Positions 5,417 to 17,040 are shown, counted from the stretch's first letter. The stretch is 64,000 nt of DNA from Sphingomonas caseinilytica (GCF_023516455.1 NZ_JAMGBA010000002.1:1-64000); one strand, 5' to 3'. The notes: generated by a model not told the origin, from the letters alone. Made by a program: numbers and translations.

Positions 5417-7552
5417 TCACTCCGCCGCCTCATCGACCGGCGGCTTGTTGTGGCCGAGAAGCCGAAGCACTTCGTCCGCCGCGTCGGCGAGATTGGTGCC
5501 AGGTCCGAAGATCGCCTGCACACCCGCCTCGCGGAGCATCGCATAATCCTGCGGCGGGATAACGCCGCCAGCGACCACCTTGATGTCCGGCCGGCCGGCC
5601 TCCTTCAGCGCCGCGATGAGTTCGGGGATCAGCGTCTTGTGGCCTGCCGCGAGCGACGATGCGCCCACGACGTCGACATCATGCTCCACCGCCAGTTCCG
5701 CACTCTCGCGCGGGGTCTGGAACAGCGGCCCTGCGATTACCTCGAAGCCCAAATCGCCGAACGCCGAGCTGACCAGGTTGGCGCCGCGGTCATGTCCATC
5801 CTGGCCCATCTTGGCGACGAGGATGCGGGGCTTGCGGCCCATGCGCTCCGCCACCGATGACGTGCCCGCGACGGCTTCCTTCCAGCGCGCGTCATTGCGG
5901 CGTCCGTAGATGCCGCGAACCGGTTCCGGGTTGGTGTGATAACGGCCGAACGCACGCTCGAGCGCATCCGAAATCTCGCCCAGCGAGCAGCGCGCCCTCG
6001 CGCATTCGACCGACAGCGCCAGCAGGTTGCCACCGTCGCGAGCGCCCGTTTCCAGCAGGTCCAGTGCGGCGCGTGCCTTCGCCTCGTCGCGGGTGCTGCG
6101 CATTTTCTCCAGACGTGCAATCTGGCCGGCGCGAACCTTGGCATTATCGACTTCCAGGATGTCGAGATGCGGTTCATTTTCCAGCCGGTAGCGGTTGACG
6201 CCGACAATCACCGTTTCGCCCGTATCGACCTTGGCCGCGCGCTCGGCGGCGGCTTCCTCGATCCGCATCTTGGGCAGGCCTTCGGCGACCGCCTTGGTCA
6301 TGCCGCCGTGGCTCTCGACTTCCTCGATCAGCGCCCAGGCGCGCTCTTCCAGCTCGCGGGTCAGCGCCTCGACATACCAGCTGCCGCCGAGCGGATCGGC
6401 GACGGCGGTGACGCCACTCTCTTCGGCCAGGATCAGCTGGGTATTGCGCGCGATGCGGGCTGAGAAATCGGTCGGCAGCGCGATCGCCTCGTCGAAGCTG
6501 TTGGTATGCAGCGACTGGGTCCCGCCCAGTACCGCGGCAAGCGCCTCGATCGTGGTGCGGATGACATTGTTGTACGGGTCCTGCTCGGTCAGCGACACGC
6601 CGCTGGTCTGGCAGTGGGTCCTGAGCAGCTTCGACTTCTCGGTCTTGGCGCCGAGGTCGGTCATGATCCGCGCCCACAGGGTCCGCGCCGCGCGTAGCTT
6701 CGCGACCTCCATGAACAGGTTCATGCCGATGCCGAAGAAGAATGAGAGGCGCGGCGCGAAATCGTCCACGTCCAGCCCGTCCGCGATCGCAACGCGGACA
6801 TATTCCATGCCGTCGGCAAGCGTGTAGGCCAGTTCCTGCACCGCCGTCGCTCCGGCCTCATGCATGTGATAGCCGCTGATTGAGATGCTGTTGAACTTGG
6901 GCATCTCTTCTGACGTGTAGGCGATGATGTCAGAGACGATCCGCATCGATGGTTCGGGCGGATAGATGTAGGTGTTGCGAACCGCGAACTCTTTCAGAAT
7001 GTCGTTCTGGATCGTTCCGGAAAGCTTCTCGCGAGGAACGCCCTGTTCTTCGCCGGCGACGATGTAGAAGGCCATGACCGGCAGCACCGCGCCATTCATC
7101 GTCATGCTGACCGACATTTCGTCCAAGGGAATGCCGTCGAACAGCAGCTTCATATCCTCGACGCTGTCGATCGCGACACCCGCCTTGCCGACATCCCCGG
7201 CGACACGCGGATGGTCGCTGTCGTATCCGCGGTGGGTGGCGAGATCGAAGGCGACCGAGAGCCCCTTCTGGCCCGCCTTCAGATTGCGGCGATAGAAGGC
7301 GTTGGATTCCTCGGCAGTCGAAAAACCAGCGTACTGGCGAATGGTCCAGGGACGCCCCGCATACATGGTCGCATAGGGGCCGCGCGTATAGGGAGGCAGA
7401 CCCGGCAAGCCACTGTCGATCCCGGCCGCGTCTTCGGGGCCGTAGACATTCTTCAGGCGGATATGCTCGGGCGTCTCACGCGACAGGTCTTTCCCACGCG
7501 ATTCCTTGTCGGCCAGCGCCTTCCAGTCGTTAATTGTCGGTTTCTCAGTCAT
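5417..7552 (-). CDS. methylmalonyl-CoA mutase, single-chain form
   Basis: The protein (711 residues from ATG 7552) converts (R)-methylmalonyl-CoA to succinyl-CoA with adenosylcobalamin. The catalytic TIM-barrel half carries [21 protein letters not shown] near residues 55-75 and the substrate-binding [18 protein letters not shown] near 140. The C-terminal cobalamin domain has DGHDRG with His587 as lower axial ligand, plus [10 protein letters not shown] and GGVIPPQDY. Catalytic and B12 domains are on one chain, as in MutB-type subunits and ScpA, with no separate small subunit nearby. The next ATG upstream-annotated start would add ten residues ([10 protein letters not shown]) without family support, so 7552 is preferred. 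It lies between the OsmC gene and pccA. Confidence 0.96.
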
Positions 7553-7606
7553 TGTGGACGCCCCTAGCGCCAGCCGAAGCAAAGCTCCAGCATCCGTTCG
7601 AGGTTG

Positions 7607-8068
7607 TTACCTCGACTCCACCACCACTTCGCTGGTGATCGAATTGGCGATGAAACAGGCCTCGTGCGACTTGTGGTGGAGCTCGTCGATGATCGCCTGC
7701 TCGGGCTCCTCGCTGGCAAACACGATCCGCGGGCGAAGCGCGACGCGGGTAATGCGGGTCTTGCCGTCACTGCCCTTGTGCATTTCGCCCTCAGCTTCGT
7801 CCTCATAACCCGTCACGACCAGCCCGGACCGCCGCGCGAAATCCAGGAAGAAGAGCATGTGGCAGCTCGCGACGCTGGCCACGAACGCCTCTTCCGGATC
7901 GACGGCATCGGGATTGGCCCAGGGCATCGGGACAATGTGCGGTGAGGCCGAAGCCGATACGTTGGTCAGGCCATCGAAGTTCCAGCTATGCGCCCGGCTA
8001 TACTGCCCCTTGGCAAAATCCTCGCCGGGCGAGGCGAACCAGCGAATGGTGGCGAAGTGGCTGGACAT
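7607..8068 (-). CDS. OsmC family peroxiredoxin-like protein
   Basis: The 153-residue protein has the OsmC/Ohr layout: a central conserved cysteine in FVASVASCHMLFFLDFARRSGL near residues 63-84 and a second cysteine in HEACFIANSITSEVVVE near the C-terminus. OsmC-like proteins reduce organic hydroperoxides through this cysteine pair. A textbook AGGAGG ribosome site precedes the ATG by four bases. It is embedded in the propionyl-CoA module between an esterase-like gene and the mutase; a role in that pathway is not evident. Confidence 0.92.
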   Translation of the reverse strand: MSSHFATIRWFASPGEDFAKGQYSRAHSWNFDGLTNVSASASPHIVPMPWANPDAVDPEEAFVASVASCHMLFFLDFARRSGLVVTGYEDEAEGEMHKGSDGKTRITRVALRPRIVFASEEPEQAIIDELHHKSHEACFIANSITSEVVVESR

Positions 8069-11102: not shown

Positions 11103-12152
11103 CTACTCGGATTCCAGCAACTCCTTGAGCTCGCTCAGCTCCCATTCGTCATTGCGGCTAAATGGGAGAATCCGGCGCAATGCGGCAAAGCCGGTGCGAC
11201 CGATTTCCTGCTGCAGTGCCTCCAACCGCGCGAAGCCCGTCCGGAGTCGCTCCGATTCACCTTCCTCAAGCTTGCGGTCGCGGTCGAGCAGCTCCTCTTC
11301 GGCGGTCAGGACCAGCTCGGTTTTCAGCATGCAATATTCGCGGATGCGCTCGGACTCGGCCTTGGTCGCCCGGCCCGCGAGCGCGGCGATCCGCTGCCCG
11401 CTGGCATCGGCGGGAAAGCCGCCCTTGCGCCATTCTTCCAGCCAAAGGCGATGGCCTTCACTCTCCTCGACGAGCCATAGTTGCGCCTCCGTCTCGCCGA
11501 AGCGGAGGAGGCCGATGATCGCGATCGGTGCCAGGACCAAGGTCGCCAGCATTACCAGGCCGGGCCGATCCGGGAACTGGTTGAAGATGATGTGGATGAA
11601 CCCCGCCGCGAGATAGCCGGGCACGAACCAGAGCAGGTTGAAGGCCAGACCGGTCCCCTGTTCCCGCAACCTGCGCTCGCCGAGCTCATGAGCAACCGCG
11701 GCGAGGATTGCCGTCGTGGTGCCATGCATGACCGCGGTGCCCAGCCCACGAACTACCCACACCGGCATCGTCAGGTCTGGATAGCGCATCAGGTAAAAGC
11801 CGTTCTCTACAACGGAGAATCCGGCGCCGATCGCAAAACCGAAGATAATCGCATCGATCTTGTAGCCGATCCGGTTGGCGGCGATCAGGATCATCAGCGG
11901 GATGGCCTTCAACGCCTCCTCGATCCACGGGGCGACCATGCGGCTGTAGAAGCTGTAGCCCATCGGCAGCGTGTCGAGCATCTGGCCGCTGATCGGCCAG
12001 GCGACCAGCGCCATGAAGCCGCCCATGATCAGCGGTCCGACCAGCTCGCGCGGCGCCATCAGCTTGAAGACGTCGAGCCAGGCGAACAGCACGACCATCA
12101 CCAGCACCGGAACCAGCGCGACCGACCAGTTGAGGACTTCGATCAGGTTCAT
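11103..12152 (-). CDS. PrsW-like intramembrane metalloprotease
   Basis: The 349-residue protein has about eight hydrophobic segments in residues 10-240 followed by a charged, coiled-coil-like cytoplasmic tail. The PrsW/CPBP signature is present: APWIEEALKAIPLMIL (Glu78, Glu79, Lys82), FGFAIGAGFSVVENGFYL with a second glutamate near 128, and HGTTTAILAA. PrsW proteases perform site-1 or intramembrane cleavage, for example of anti-sigma factors. The gene starts 10 bases after the stop of the HExxH/barrel gene and is the last gene of that operon. The substrate is unknown; the two upstream genes are natural candidates. Confidence 0.88.
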   Translation of the reverse strand: MNLIEVLNWSVALVPVLVMVVLFAWLDVFKLMAPRELVGPLIMGGFMALVAWPISGQMLDTLPMGYSFYSRMVAPWIEEALKAIPLMILIAANRIGYKIDAIIFGFAIGAGFSVVENGFYLMRYPDLTMPVWVVRGLGTAVMHGTTTAILAAVAHELGERRLREQGTGLAFNLLWFVPGYLAAGFIHIIFNQFPDRPGLVMLATLVLAPIAIIGLLRFGETEAQLWLVEESEGHRLWLEEWRKGGFPADASGQRIAALAGRATKAESERIREYCMLKTELVLTAEEELLDRDRKLEEGESERLRTGFARLEALQQEIGRTGFAALRRILPFSRNDEWELSELKELLESE

Positions 12153-12162
12153 CTGAGACCCC

Positions 12163-15100
12163 TCACAGGATCTTCAGCGATGCCATAAATTCGGTTCGCC
12201 CGTCGATATCCTTGTCGCCGAACCCCTGTGCGATGCCCAGCGAGAGAACCATTGGAAGCCGCATCACGACGGTGAACCCAAGGTCCACCTGCGCACCCAA
12301 GGTGAACAGCCGATATTTGGTGTCCTCAGGCGAATCCAGCAGCATGGCGCCGCCGAACAGGGCCGGCCGCGCATAGCTCAGGAAGAAGGCAGCCGTTCCG
12401 ACCTCTTCGAACCGCACCGGCGGCAGGTTCACCTCACCGGTCACCTTGCCGAACTTTCGCGCGGCGATCTGGTCGATTTCGAAGCCCGGAAATGCCTCGA
12501 GCTCGCGGTACCGTTTCTCCGGCCGGTTATCGACATAGTTGTTGCGGAAGCTGCCGAAGTAGAGCGCGCCGAGCGGGCTGTCGCTGTCGCCGCCGACGAT
12601 GCCGGCCTGCGCATAGCCCCAGACGGAGCTATTGGGCCACGGCAGCGGCACGCCATAATCGATGCCGCCCCATAGCCTCGGAAATTCCTTCCCCTCGGCA
12701 TGGTCGATGCCGGTGACCGCGCGCCAGGCGATCCCCTTTTCATGGTCGACCCCGCCGAGCGCACTGGTCGAATTGGTATATTTGATGCCCAGTTCGCCGG
12801 AATAAATGTCCTTGGGGCTGGGTACGTTCTGGGCCGACGGCAGCTGCTCCAGCCCGAAATAGCCGGCGACGCTGCCGAAGATGTCGAGCTGCCGCGGCGG
12901 ATCGTAGATCTTGGTCTTGTTGTAGCCAATGATGATCGCATCGCCCTTGCGGCTCCGCAGCACCGGACCCGCCAGATCATAAATGTCGGCGTCGTTGTGC
13001 CAGTAGCGGAGGTTCCAGTTCAGCGTCTTATATTCGATGTCCGCGTGCAGCCCCTCGCCGTCGCCGAAGTCGCCCCATGGCGAGACGCTGAACGCCGCGC
13101 TCAGCTGATGGAACTGCATCGGATCTTCGAAGTGGAAGAAATAGCCGGCGGTTAGCTTCTGCTTGTAACCCTCGATGATCGGATAGGCGGCGGCCAGCTT
13201 CATCCGGTCGGTGGCGTGATACATGCCGCGCGCCTTGACCAGCGGGTCGAGATCGACCTTCGCAGGAGACCCCACGCCCCATTCCTTCAGCTCCGGATGG
13301 GTCTTGATCACCTTGGTGCCGAGGAACTCGATCGTTCCGAGGTCATCCCGCTTTTCCGCGCGGATCAGCGAGGGGTTCAATCCTTCGCCAGTATATTCAT
13401 AGACCAATAGCTGACCGTCAGGCCGCAACATCGGCCGGAAGAAACCGGTCGAGGCGTTGGACAGCACGTCATATTTCTGGGTGTCGAGATCGAACCGGAA
13501 GATGTTCGACACACCGGTGTAGTAGCTGGTGCCGTACATCGACTTGCCGTCAGGCGCGAAGGTGAAACCCTCCGGCGTCGAAGAGGCGAGGTCGAGCCGC
13601 GCCACCTCGTTGGGCGTGCCCGATGCCTCGAAATCCTCGGTCTTCCAGACCCGCACGGATTGGGTGCCGTTGATCTCGCCATAGCTTGCGGAGATCAGCG
13701 ACCCGTCCGGCGAGATATCGAGGTCGAACGGCGTGATCCCATAGTCGAAGGTGTGGACCTGGTTGAAACCGGCATAGGGCGCCGGAATGCGGACCAGGGT
13801 CGCATAGCCGTTCTGGTGCCTTATGCCCCAGATCGACTTGTCCCTGGGATTGAGGACCAGGTCGCCGATGCGCGCGTCGCGCAGCAGCATGCGTTTCTTG
13901 CCGGTGTCGACATCGACTTCCATGACATCCCGGAACGCCCGGTTGTCGTCGGTATAATAGGCCTTGCGGCTGTCCGGATCGAAGGCGACGCTCGTCACGA
14001 AATAGAGCATCATGCCTTTCAAATCGGACAGACGCCGAAGCTTGCCGGTCGCGAGGTCCATCGTCCCGATGAAACCGATTTGCCCGGGGAAGCGGAATGC
14101 AGCGACCAGGCTGTTGGTACGCTCGTCGACATAGCCCCGCGACATGGAGCCGAGGCCCTTGGGGCTGAGATGCTGCACGTCGGTCAACGGATAGGCGGAT
14201 AGCTTGGCGAGATTCTCCTGCTGGAACACCCGCTCGAACGCGTGCCACTCGCTCCACACCGCATCGAGCGATTTGCCGAAGGTGCGCTTGAACTGGGAGG
14301 CGTAGAAGGCCGCGCTGTCGTCGTCGCGGCGCAGCCACTGCATCACCTTTTCGGGTCCGTAGGTCAGCGCAAGGTATGAGAAGAAGCGGGTGCCGTAGAG
14401 ATAATCGTTGGCGCCGATCTGGAAATCGACCGCGATGCCTTCGCTCTCCAGCCCGAGCGGCGAATAGAGCTTGTCGTTGTCGCGGACCTTGGCCCGGAAC
14501 ACCATCTCGTCATAGCCGCCCTGCGCACGGCCTAGCCCACCGGCCATCCATGTTTCGAAGAAGACGGCCGACCCTTCGGCGTACCAGCGCGGGATATTGT
14601 TTCGGGGCGTCGTCAGATAATTGTAAAGGATCGATTCCGGATGCTCCTGGATGGGCATCGGCTTGCCGGCCAGCCATTTGCGCCAGAAGGCGTCGCGCTT
14701 GTTCCACGCATCGAGCGTCGCGACGTGCGCAAGCTCATGGTTGATCAGCGTGTAGAAGCGCTCGCCCGGCGTGAAGGTCTCCATCCGTTGCGACACCGGC
14801 GCGACGTCGAGCAGCACGCCATTGTTGGGCGACGCCCGAGCGCCGGCGTTACCGAAATCGCCGAAATCCTTGAGCAGGACCGTGGTGCGGTCCCAGGGCT
14901 CCCAGTGGAAGCGATCCTTGTGCCACTCGATCGCATTCTCGAACGCCCTTGCGACATAGGGCGTGAGATAAGTCTGGATCGGGTCGAAATAGAGCAGGAG
15001 CTGGTTGTCGGTTTCGATCGTCGACAAGGGAATGCCGCCGGCATTGGGCGGCGAATGCTTGAGCTCGCCAGTCTCGGGCTCTTCCGTCGGCGGCGAAACG

Positions 15101-15288
15101 GGTGGGCCCACCGGCTCCGTTTCCGGAGCCGGCGCGACTGGCCCATCCTGAATTACCGTCGTGTCGGGAGGTGGGGGCAAAGGTTCCTGCTGAACCTGAG
15201 CCATTGCCCCGCTCGCGACGCTGCCAAGGCAGATCGCAGTCAACTGCCTTGCCCAGCGCCGCTTGCGGCGCGCCTTTGCCCCGATCAT
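12163..15288 (-). CDS. secreted HExxH metallopeptidase with TolB-like propeller and C-terminal outer-membrane barrel
   Basis: This product of about 1040 residues begins with a signal peptide (LTAICLGSVASGAMA) and a Pro-rich linker. A gluzincin-type zinc site is visible: HELAH at about residues 185-189 and WYAEGSA with a candidate third ligand Glu near 239, as in the peptidase-MA group. Residues about 370-660 show repeated propeller-like strands (PDSRKAYYTDDNR, SPDGSLISASYGE, APDGKSMYGTSYY). The last 350 residues alternate polar and aromatic positions (ADIEYKTLNWNLRYWHN, DYGVPLPWPNSSVWGYAQAG) and end in MASLKIL, as expected for a barrel strand. Start ATG 15288 follows AAAGGGGGG. It is 31-34 bases downstream of the decapeptide-repeat gene. 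The domain combination is seen in the sequence; the biological substrate is unknown. Confidence 0.75.
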   Translation of the reverse strand: MIGAKARRKRRWARQLTAICLGSVASGAMAQVQQEPLPPPPDTTVIQDGPVAPAPETEPVGPPVSPPTEEPETGELKHSPPNAGGIPLSTIETDNQLLLYFDPIQTYLTPYVARAFENAIEWHKDRFHWEPWDRTTVLLKDFGDFGNAGARASPNNGVLLDVAPVSQRMETFTPGERFYTLINHELAHVATLDAWNKRDAFWRKWLAGKPMPIQEHPESILYNYLTTPRNNIPRWYAEGSAVFFETWMAGGLGRAQGGYDEMVFRAKVRDNDKLYSPLGLESEGIAVDFQIGANDYLYGTRFFSYLALTYGPEKVMQWLRRDDDSAAFYASQFKRTFGKSLDAVWSEWHAFERVFQQENLAKLSAYPLTDVQHLSPKGLGSMSRGYVDERTNSLVAAFRFPGQIGFIGTMDLATGKLRRLSDLKGMMLYFVTSVAFDPDSRKAYYTDDNRAFRDVMEVDVDTGKKRMLLRDARIGDLVLNPRDKSIWGIRHQNGYATLVRIPAPYAGFNQVHTFDYGITPFDLDISPDGSLISASYGEINGTQSVRVWKTEDFEASGTPNEVARLDLASSTPEGFTFAPDGKSMYGTSYYTGVSNIFRFDLDTQKYDVLSNASTGFFRPMLRPDGQLLVYEYTGEGLNPSLIRAEKRDDLGTIEFLGTKVIKTHPELKEWGVGSPAKVDLDPLVKARGMYHATDRMKLAAAYPIIEGYKQKLTAGYFFHFEDPMQFHQLSAAFSVSPWGDFGDGEGLHADIEYKTLNWNLRYWHNDADIYDLAGPVLRSRKGDAIIIGYNKTKIYDPPRQLDIFGSVAGYFGLEQLPSAQNVPSPKDIYSGELGIKYTNSTSALGGVDHEKGIAWRAVTGIDHAEGKEFPRLWGGIDYGVPLPWPNSSVWGYAQAGIVGGDSDSPLGALYFGSFRNNYVDNRPEKRYRELEAFPGFEIDQIAARKFGKVTGEVNLPPVRFEEVGTAAFFLSYARPALFGGAMLLDSPEDTKYRLFTLGAQVDLGFTVVMRLPMVLSLGIAQGFGDKDIDGRTEFMASLKIL

Positions 15289-15322
15289 CACCCCCCTTTC
15301 GGGCCGCTAGGGCCCGGCACCC

Positions 15323-16906
15323 CTATTGGTTCGATAGGCTTGCTGCGAACCTGGCGTCCCCCATCGCTGCCGCAAACGACGGATTGGCGGCCAGTGCATG
15401 GAAGGCGCTCATGCTCTTCAGTGCGTTGAACGCGTTGGCATTGGCGGACAGTGCCTGAAGCGCCTGCGCATTGTTGGCGATCGCCGCCCAAGCTGCCGGT
15501 TGCGCCGACATCGCCGCAACGGCCGCCGGATTGGCCGACATCGCCTGCATCGCGCGGGCGTTGAACTGGCCCCTGGCCGACAGGCTTGCCGCAGCCGACG
15601 CAGCATTGAACGCCTGGGCCGCGTTGACCGCCGAGGCCAACGCATTGGCATTCGCCGACATCGCCTTCCACGCCGCCGCATTGGCCGACATGGCATTCAA
15701 TGCATTGACGTTTGCCGCAGCGTTGAAGGCCTTGGCATTGGCCGCGAGCGCGCTGAACGCATCGGCGTTCTTGGCAATCGCGCTGAATGCGCTTGCGTCA
15801 CGCGACAGCGCCGACATCGCGCTGGCATCACGCGACAATGCCTCGAACGCGCTGGCGTCGCGGGACATCGCAGCCATGGCCGACGGATTGCGCGCGGCCG
15901 CCGAGAACGCACTCGGGTTCTTGGCGAAACCGGCGAAGGCCGCCGGGTTGCGCGCAATCGCCGCGAAGGCCTGCGGATGCCGTCCCAAAGCCGCAAAGGC
16001 GCTCGGATTAGACGAGATCGCCTCCAGCACTTTCGGCTGCAGGGACATCGCATTGAATGCGCTGGCATGCTGCGACATTGCCGCCGCAACCTGCCCATTC
16101 ATGGCATTGGCCTGTCCAAGGTTTGCCGAAAAGGCGCTGGCGGCCTTTGCCGACAGCGACAATGCGTCCGCATTCTTGGCCAGGCCGCTGAACGCGTCGG
16201 CGTTCTTGGCGATCGCATCGAATGCACTGGCTTCGCGGGTGATTGCCGACATGGCGCTGGCATCACGCGACAACGCCTCGAATGCGCTGGCGTCGCGAGA
16301 CATCGCAGCCATGGCCGACGGATTGCGTGCCGCAGCCGAGAACGCACTCGGGTTCTTGGCGAAACCGGCGAAGGCCGCCGGATTACGCGCAATCGCCGCG
16401 AACGCCTGCGGATGCCGTCCGAACGCCGCGAAGGCGGCCGGATTATTGGACATCGCCGCAAAGGCCTGGGCCTGGCCGGCGTTGGCGCTAGCCGCCGCCG
16501 CCGAAACCGCCTGCGCCGCATTCACGGTTGCCATGAAGGCTGCAGGATCCTTGGCCAGACCGGTAAAGGCATTCGGATTGGCCGCAATCGCCGACATCGC
16601 CTGCGGATTTGCGGCAAGCGCCGCAAAGCCCGGGTGGCTGGCCAAGGTCCGGAAATTCGGATTCTTGGTCATCACCTCGAACGCATCCGTCTGCATCAGC
16701 TTCGGAATGGACGTATCCCCGAGTGTTACGTCACCCTCGCCGACTTGAGACGATACGTAGCGGTCTGCCGGGGCGATTGTGCCCTCGGTCGGACCCAGCG
16801 GCGGATAGATCCGGCCGAGCCCATACGCTGCTACTGCGACGGCGATAATCGCCGCGCCGGTTGCCATATATTTTCGATTGGATTGGTTTGATTCGATCGT
16901 AGTCAC
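15323..16906 (-). CDS. membrane-anchored alanine-rich decapeptide-repeat protein
   Basis: I do not recognise a characterised function. The 527-residue protein has a short polar N-terminus, one membrane segment (about residues 15-31, ATGAAIIAVAVAAYGLG) and then an almost uninterrupted series of 10-residue repeats of the form [N/D]-[P/A]-x-A-[F/M]-x-A-[I/L/M]-[A/S]-[R/K/N] from about residue 80 to the end (for example NPAAFAGFAK, NPSAFSAAAR, DASAFEALSR, NADAFSGLAK). More than 35 repeats can be counted; there is no cysteine in the repeats. With an uncleaved anchor the repeats would lie in the periplasm. NP-x-F-x-x-L spacing is reminiscent of STI1-like chaperone motifs, but that is only a resemblance. 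The GTG start follows GAGGGGGTGCGAC. It is the first gene of the operon with the HExxH/barrel protein and the PrsW-like protease. Confidence 0.8.
   Translation of the reverse strand: MTTIESNQSNRKYMATGAAIIAVAVAAYGLGRIYPPLGPTEGTIAPADRYVSSQVGEGDVTLGDTSIPKLMQTDAFEVMTKNPNFRTLASHPGFAALAANPQAMSAIAANPNAFTGLAKDPAAFMATVNAAQAVSAAAASANAGQAQAFAAMSNNPAAFAAFGRHPQAFAAIARNPAAFAGFAKNPSAFSAAARNPSAMAAMSRDASAFEALSRDASAMSAITREASAFDAIAKNADAFSGLAKNADALSLSAKAASAFSANLGQANAMNGQVAAAMSQHASAFNAMSLQPKVLEAISSNPSAFAALGRHPQAFAAIARNPAAFAGFAKNPSAFSAAARNPSAMAAMSRDASAFEALSRDASAMSALSRDASAFSAIAKNADAFSALAANAKAFNAAANVNALNAMSANAAAWKAMSANANALASAVNAAQAFNAASAAASLSARGQFNARAMQAMSANPAAVAAMSAQPAAWAAIANNAQALQALSANANAFNALKSMSAFHALAANPSFAAAMGDARFAASLSNQ
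15812..15985 (-). repeat. Internal 174-bp duplication in the decapeptide-repeat gene, copy B
   Basis: This block encodes 58 residues nearly identical to those of 16247-16420, 435 bases away (HPQAFAAIARNPAAFAGFAK through DASAFEALSRDASA). DNA identity is also high and differences are mainly silent. A recent segmental duplication or gene conversion inside the array is the likely origin. Confidence 0.8.
16247..16420 (-). repeat. Internal 174-bp duplication in the decapeptide-repeat gene, copy A
   Basis: This is the N-terminal-proximal partner of the block at 15812-15985. The flanking decapeptides have diverged, while this stretch is nearly the same at DNA and protein level. Confidence 0.8.
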
Positions 16907-16964: not shown

Positions 16965-17040
16965 ATCGGCGAAGATTTACTTTTCCTTTACCAAAGTCAA
17001 TGAACCTTTGGCTAAGTTATTGATAAAGGCTAACTATATA
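16965..17040. promoter_or_regulatory. AT-rich divergent promoter region
   Basis: The 245-base gap between the decapeptide-repeat gene and the histidine phosphatase gene contains an island that is much richer in A and T than its surroundings (TTTACTTTTCCTTTACC, TAACTATATATTCG). A TTGACT on the minus strand near 17000 could be a -35 element. I cannot fix a -10 box or transcription start, so this is only a probable divergent promoter. Confidence 0.35.

Follow-up and report, generated by a model that had tools for sequence, protein, structure and literature searches.

Two-step proteolysis of an anti-sigma factor is found in the RseA/DegS/RseP system, where the serine protease DegS is attached to the inner membrane. 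In Bacillus subtilis, PrsW cuts RsiW, the anti-sigma factor of SigW (PMC3498285, PMC5358783). A physical link from the cytosol to the outer membrane is represented by the Dma proteins, which unite an anti-sigma domain, a transmembrane (TM) segment, a long periplasmic tether, and a barrel in one polypeptide, control an ECF sigma factor, and were described as solely occurring in Bacteroidota (PMC13088901). Furthermore, a PrsW-linked release of polymorphic toxins was proposed (Zhang et al., 2012; PMC3482391).

The locus considered here lies in a stretch of 64,000 nucleotides from Sphingomonas caseinilytica (NZ_JAMGBA010000002.1:1-64000), denoted as the window. It comprises three genes:

15323..16906, minus strand: anchor (tether) gene; single TM segment, about 44 decapeptide repeats; kept upstream of the barrel gene
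12163..15291, minus strand: barrel protein gene; secreted protein with HExxH, propeller, and putative outer-membrane barrel
11103..12152, minus strand: PrsW-family intramembrane protease gene, with a C-terminal cytosolic extension

A preliminary description had listed three packed minus-strand genes with gaps of about 31 and 10 bases, and the exact coordinates agree (31 bases at 15292-15322, 10 bases at 12153-12162). The products are 527 (anchor, GTG start), 1042 (barrel protein), and 349 (PrsW) amino acids long. In beta- and gammaproteobacteria, the trio forms the 3' end of an eight-gene locus with the order SpoIIE-type phosphatase, RsbW-like ATPase, STAS protein, ECF sigma factor, membrane anti-sigma factor, anchor, putative outer-membrane protease, and PrsW; alphaproteobacteria, the window included, have the trio alone. 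The set would represent a variant form of ECF/RIP signalling, and its core trio also occurs on its own. The trio is real, conserved, widespread but patchy, and undescribed within the literature searched: in line with the preliminary description, which knew of no such system, no paper on it was found among openly licensed publications, but large classifications of ECF factors might include this group.

With SigW/RsiW/PrsW, the locus shares an ECF sigma factor nearest to SigW in NCBIfam, a membrane anti-sigma factor, and a PrsW-family protease. In contrast to B. subtilis, the locus is Gram-negative and also unites with these genes an outer-membrane-type metalloprotease, a repeat tether, and the SpoIIE/HATPase/STAS module, and the alphaproteobacteria go without the sigma arm. 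The window PrsW is far below the cut-off of the PrsW equivalog (NF033739, the RsiW protease; score 23.6 vs. 225) and is hence assigned to the PrsW family, not to the equivalog. The likeness to Dma consists in a cytosol-to-outer-membrane link that would control an ECF sigma factor; here, however, PrsW is present, two protease active sites occur, and tether and barrel are separate proteins in every locus, which rules out membership in the Dma family. Taking the missed equivalog cut-off and the separate genes together, the locus belongs neither to SigW/RsiW/PrsW nor to Dma. Two-step anti-sigma proteolysis, as with RseA/DegS/RseP, is the likely logic, but the role of first protease would fall to a zinc-type protein with a propeller and a probable outer-membrane barrel. 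The proposed toxin release resembles the locus in that PrsW is linked to a repeat protein, and differs in that the locus shows neither a fusion nor a toxin domain.

The anchor had been described as a membrane-anchored protein of more than 35 ten-residue repeats, an account borne out by about 44 units and one TM segment. Its features are:

16814..16867, minus strand: TM segment, residues 14-31, preceded by a basic N-terminus (sequence and alignment of 67 anchors)
16670..16783, minus strand: juxtamembrane motif GTIaPAeRYxxxQvxxxDVxLGDxxvxxLMQTDxFE, residues 42-79
15326..16669, minus strand: repeat region, residues 80-527, period 10, predicted alpha-solenoid

In the window, the short basic N-terminus and the TM segment lead to the motif (GTIAPADRYVSSQVGEGDVTLGDTSIPKLMQTDAFEVM) and then to the decapeptides. 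Self-identity over about 446 amino acids is strongest at a lag of 10 (0.40), followed by 20, 30, and 40, and AlphaFold2 places one helix of 8-9 residues in each repeat unit (mean pLDDT 73); the solenoid showed no significant match to the PDB. Short stacked helices take up about 5 Å per unit, and the 44 units are estimated to extend over about 20 nm, near the width of the periplasm. A match to the STI1/HOP DP repeat (PF17830; 25.4 vs. a cut-off of 29.1) and one to a PHROG tail fibre were rejected as low-complexity matches.

Throughout the 67 aligned anchors, the TM segment and the juxtamembrane motif, the sole strongly conserved part of the protein, are kept, while the repeats differ. The latter are alanine-rich, short, helical, lineage-specific, and internally homogenised; their period is 10 in alphaproteobacteria and 9 in gammaproteobacteria, and several betaproteobacteria and others harbor unrelated low-complexity repeats (RGDG, AAKAAADS, SGTSGL). 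What is conserved is therefore the attachment, the membrane-adjacent motif, and the long extension, not the repeat sequence. Some variants were observed. In at least L060 (1818-2630), an L,D-transpeptidase (YkuD) carries an anchor-type N-terminus (TM segment and a YPxxGPxxGxxAPAQRYV-like stretch), and L061 (1577-2386) encodes a similar protein, both in the window's genus; judged by sequence, this fusion points to a link between this anchor type and peptidoglycan. In L126 (about 7000-7900, on the strand opposite the barrel gene), the motif (GTIAAASRFQEQQVNVADV) is carried not by a TM protein but by a probable lipoprotein (LGIAGC lipobox), which could not signal through a TM segment; this counts against the proteolytic relay discussed below. 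In L078, an additional ORF (5795-6601) separates the anchor from the barrel gene.

The second protein, presented earlier as secreted with an HELAH site, propeller strands, and a barrel-like C-terminus, contains all of these parts:

15199..15291, minus strand: signal peptide, residues 1-31, ending in ...SGAMA/Q (from sequence)
14725..14739, minus strand: HELAH zinc motif, residues 185-189, 100% conserved in 101 sequences
14575-14577, minus strand: E239, 100% conserved in 101 sequences
13342..14184, minus strand: TolB-like beta-propeller, residues 370-650
12166..13200, minus strand: beta-rich C-terminal domain, residues 698-1042, probable outer-membrane barrel

H185, E186, H189, and E239 are invariant in the 101 barrel proteins, corresponding to the HExxH motif and downstream glutamate of gluzincins (MA clan). 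The curated Pfam peptidase families yielded no match; BSP was matched in one of 26 relatives, at 0.021, and the metalloprotease region was modelled below a pLDDT of 50. Residues 370-625 superpose on TolB over 236-238 residues (Z about 19, rmsd 3 Å). What the two proteins have in common is the propeller fold alone, and the TolB equivalog (TIGR02800) was rejected at a score of 23.7 vs. a cut-off of 343. From residue 698 to the C-terminus, which ends in an invariant SLK(I/V)(L/M), about 14 strands are predicted in a low-confidence model. Since this model, built from a shallow alignment of 11 sequences excluding distant relatives, is weak overall (pLDDT 53), the barrel assignment rests on the strand pattern and on weak matches to Omp85_2 (PF19143) in 12 of the 26 relatives (best E 7.7e-5; none shown above the cut-off of 23.1 bits). 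The protein is predicted to reside in the outer membrane, with gluzincin domain and propeller in the periplasm.

The third product, taken to be an intramembrane protease of the PrsW/CPBP type from the outset, scores above the curated Pfam threshold for PF13367 (61.9 vs. 23.5 bits). The conserved membrane Glu and His residues of the family (E78, E79, E116, H143, and H187) are invariant in 96 of 96 sequences and include part of one mapped motif:

11907..11921, minus strand: EExxK motif, PrsW residues 78-82, invariant in 96 sequences

Linkage of the three genes across sphingomonad genomes was confirmed. The window's genus was covered by 37 genomes, its own and 36 others, and a full-length barrel protein with at least 60% identity is encoded in 11 of them. 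PrsW adjoins the barrel gene in all 11, and the anchor is present in 10, the contig of the remaining one (G031) ending just upstream; both partners are thus adjacent wherever the contig allows. One more genome has PrsW on a short contig, and the other 25 are devoid of all three genes. The flanking genes of the window recur only in L064 among the named loci. A scattering of the three genes over unrelated places in close relatives, which would have spoken against an operon, was not seen: the flanks differ and the trio remains together.

In a scan across 84,980 species genomes, 236 relatives were identified, and 80 of them were retained. They come from alpha-, beta-, and gammaproteobacteria plus one MAG labelled Gemmatimonadaceae that groups with the betaproteobacteria, which rules out an operon of sphingomonads only. 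With 20 further regions from the L118 family (probably Woeseiaceae), where the locus occurs in 26 of 101 genomes, the comparison comprised 100 loci. PrsW is the next gene downstream of the barrel gene in 94 of them, or 95 with L142, which had been mis-scored because its PrsW frame was merged with a longer overlapping ORF; three others are truncated by the contig, and L119 and L123 alone are truly without PrsW. In these two, anchor and barrel genes lack a downstream PrsW though the contig continues (after 6947 and 10847, respectively). A gene with the anchor motif lies directly upstream of the barrel gene in 66 of the 100 loci, 28 have less than 1.5 kb upstream, and the rest mostly possess an anchor with a variant motif or one found by profile. 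The evolutionary distances of barrel protein and PrsW are correlated (r 0.67), and the tree separates a clade of 44 rows from alphaproteobacteria (window included) without ECF from a clade of 57 rows holding every ECF locus. The conserved gene neighbourhood rules out chance adjacency. Three further samples (398 evenly drawn Pseudomonadota, 200 genomes from the Rhizobacter family, and 200 from the order to which L141 belongs) each gave a match in the centre genome alone. Outside groups such as the L118 family, the locus is therefore rare, with a patchy distribution. An anti-phage defence function (no PADLOC match) and an origin from viruses or plasmids (a peptide-pattern search of IMG/VR showed no relative, and plasmids contained none) were discarded.

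Of the 15 non-alphaproteobacterial loci whose upstream sequence extends over at least 3 kb, 13 have ECF and anti-sigma genes directly before the anchor, as do all 16 probable Woeseiaceae loci with room (among them L183 and L184, which duplicate the genomes of L122 and L112). Since profile building partly used these loci, the anti-sigma counts are not independent, whereas Pfam matches and position are. Pfam confirmed Sigma70_r2 and r4 in the ECF of L098 and L142. For the L098 ECF, the best NCBIfam model is SigW (6e-39, below the cut-off), and its neighbour gives weak matches to anti-sigma models (1e-5). Most gammaproteobacterial anti-sigma factors have a TM segment and a periplasmic domain of their own; therefore, the anchor need not be the substrate that regulates the sigma factor. 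A GAF-SpoIIE phosphatase, an RsbW-like HATPase (HATPase_c_2), and a STAS protein lie upstream in 30 beta/gamma loci and in no alphaproteobacterial locus. In L187 (4707-6678), for example, this partner-switch module directly precedes the ECF gene with its membrane anti-sigma factor, two inhibitor types being combined; in L128 (5136-7824), it is followed directly by the anchor, and neither ECF nor anti-sigma factor was detected. The linkage of the trio to a sigma factor, an anti-sigma factor, and the partner-switch module provides a likely purpose for the proteolysis. At the window locus and at all alphaproteobacterial loci, no ECF sigma/anti-sigma genes were found. The window genome encodes one generic ECF only, on another contig, and a search for the same ECF in the window's genus returned only generic ECFs, whether or not a genome carries the trio.

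In 26 of 27 loci (e.g. L187, 6699), the start codon of the sigma gene is preceded, at a distance of exactly 28 nt, by the sequence CCAACYTTT-N13-GTA, and a second copy precedes the anchor in about 20 loci, the expectation from shuffling being 0.02 per locus. Six whole genomes contain 11 strict hits in total, 8 of which fall at the eight-gene locus, and the reversed control pattern gave seven scattered hits; the window genome and one carrier congener contain none. With AAC in the -35 element, the motif looks like a promoter of the ECF type, and its closeness to the start codon suggests a nearly leaderless sigma mRNA. Upstream of alphaproteobacterial anchors, TTGAC is followed 5-6 bases on by a TTAA-like sequence, either a sigma70-like -35 or an operator; in the window, TTGACT (16995-17000, minus strand), a sigma70-like -35 common to these anchors and noted by eye, falls in the gap between the anchor and a divergent histidine-phosphatase gene.

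In five loci (L109, L127, L132, L142, and L141), a single open frame runs through anti-sigma domain and anchor. The second motif copy lies inside the linker in the first four, L141 being without a clear motif; in most, a ribosome-site-like sequence and an internal ATG follow. Codon-position GC in the linkers is flat. Free anchor is probably made from this internal start, and a read-through fusion may also be produced. The internal promoter-like motif weakens the shared frame as proof of a fused protein, and with the ribosome site at the ATG and the flat GC, the fusion may be no functional protein.

The preliminary description had supposed that the two proteases process or monitor the repeat protein. 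Repeats and metalloprotease are both periplasmic by topology, and this is still the best reading; the conserved unit, the fixed gene order, and two proteases with every catalytic residue speak for it, and cleavage itself we infer. That description had seen neither the reach beyond sphingomonads nor the sigma link of the beta/gamma loci. With the latter included, we regard the chances as evenly balanced that the trio is a trans-envelope proteolytic relay, which in beta- and gammaproteobacteria controls a dedicated ECF sigma factor. According to signal peptide, C-terminal barrel, and an N-in single TM segment, repeats, metalloprotease, and propeller would be periplasmic and PrsW would reside in the inner membrane. 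The repeat protein would be tether and substrate at once, spanning the periplasm to the barrel protein, and the latter would act as outer-membrane sensor and first protease. Upon envelope disturbance, the metalloprotease would cut the anchor (or the anti-sigma factor) near the juxtamembrane motif, and PrsW would then cleave the anchor and/or the anti-sigma factor within the membrane. In beta- and gammaproteobacteria, this would free the ECF sigma factor to transcribe its own gene and the trio, an autoregulation with positive feedback via two promoters, and the partner-switch proteins would supply a second, cytosolic input. Sigma control cannot be the sole function, since alphaproteobacteria have the trio without the sigma factor; there, it would have an output of its own, such as tether renewal or release, or it may primarily be an effector switched on by sigma elsewhere.

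This last option is a serious alternative, which we judge possible but clearly short of even: the trio would be an effector instead of a sensor, an envelope module such as a tether between inner and outer membrane or a device for outer-membrane maintenance, the proteases would mature or renew the repeat protein, and sigma in the beta/gamma loci would merely switch it on as its main target. The near confinement of the promoter-like motif to the locus would make the trio the main product of sigma, alphaproteobacteria keep it alone with both active sites intact, the TM segments of most gammaproteobacterial anti-sigma factors fit as well, and the anchor-like N-terminus on an L,D-transpeptidase in at least L060 (similar in L061) points to envelope structure. 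However, the constant pairing with a PrsW-type protease, the single well-known role of which is anti-sigma cleavage, is given no special reason, and the common frame of anti-sigma domain and anchor in five loci is left unexplained. A PrsW-dependent export or release of a surface or secreted repeat protein or toxin is improbable. Such a release was proposed earlier (PMC3482391), and here too a repeat protein adjoins PrsW; yet in that proposal PrsW is fused N-terminally to the toxin and here it is a separate gene without fusion to a C-terminal toxin domain. A toxin domain was not found on the repeat protein, whose repeat C-termini show conservation within lineages, not polymorphism, and PADLOC gave no match. 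A passive structural, adhesive, or ice-binding type of protein with unrelated neighbours, as the alanine-rich, short helical, lineage-specific, and internally homogenised repeats might suggest, is hardly credible, being contradicted by a gene order kept over three classes, correlated barrel and PrsW trees, and shared regulation.

Returning to the proteolytic relay, its fullest form is put forward tentatively, at slightly less than even confidence: a dedicated proteobacterial trans-envelope signalling system, in which an outer-membrane-anchored zinc protease would read a periplasm-spanning tether, PrsW would complete the cut, and an ECF sigma factor inhibited twice, by a membrane anti-sigma factor and a partner-switching kinase, would be freed to drive mainly its own locus, alphaproteobacteria possessing the protease-tether core alone. 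PrsW proteases are widespread, and in the papers found their sigma-regulating function is described in Gram-positives only. The present locus is a Gram-negative setting of PrsW that combines a sigma factor and a promoter motif with likely candidates for both the substrate and the outer-membrane partner, so that signalling from an outer-membrane event to an intramembrane protease is directly testable. It represents a proteobacterial counterpart to the Dma anti-sigma factors, with a fast-changing repeat protein of roughly periplasm-spanning size.
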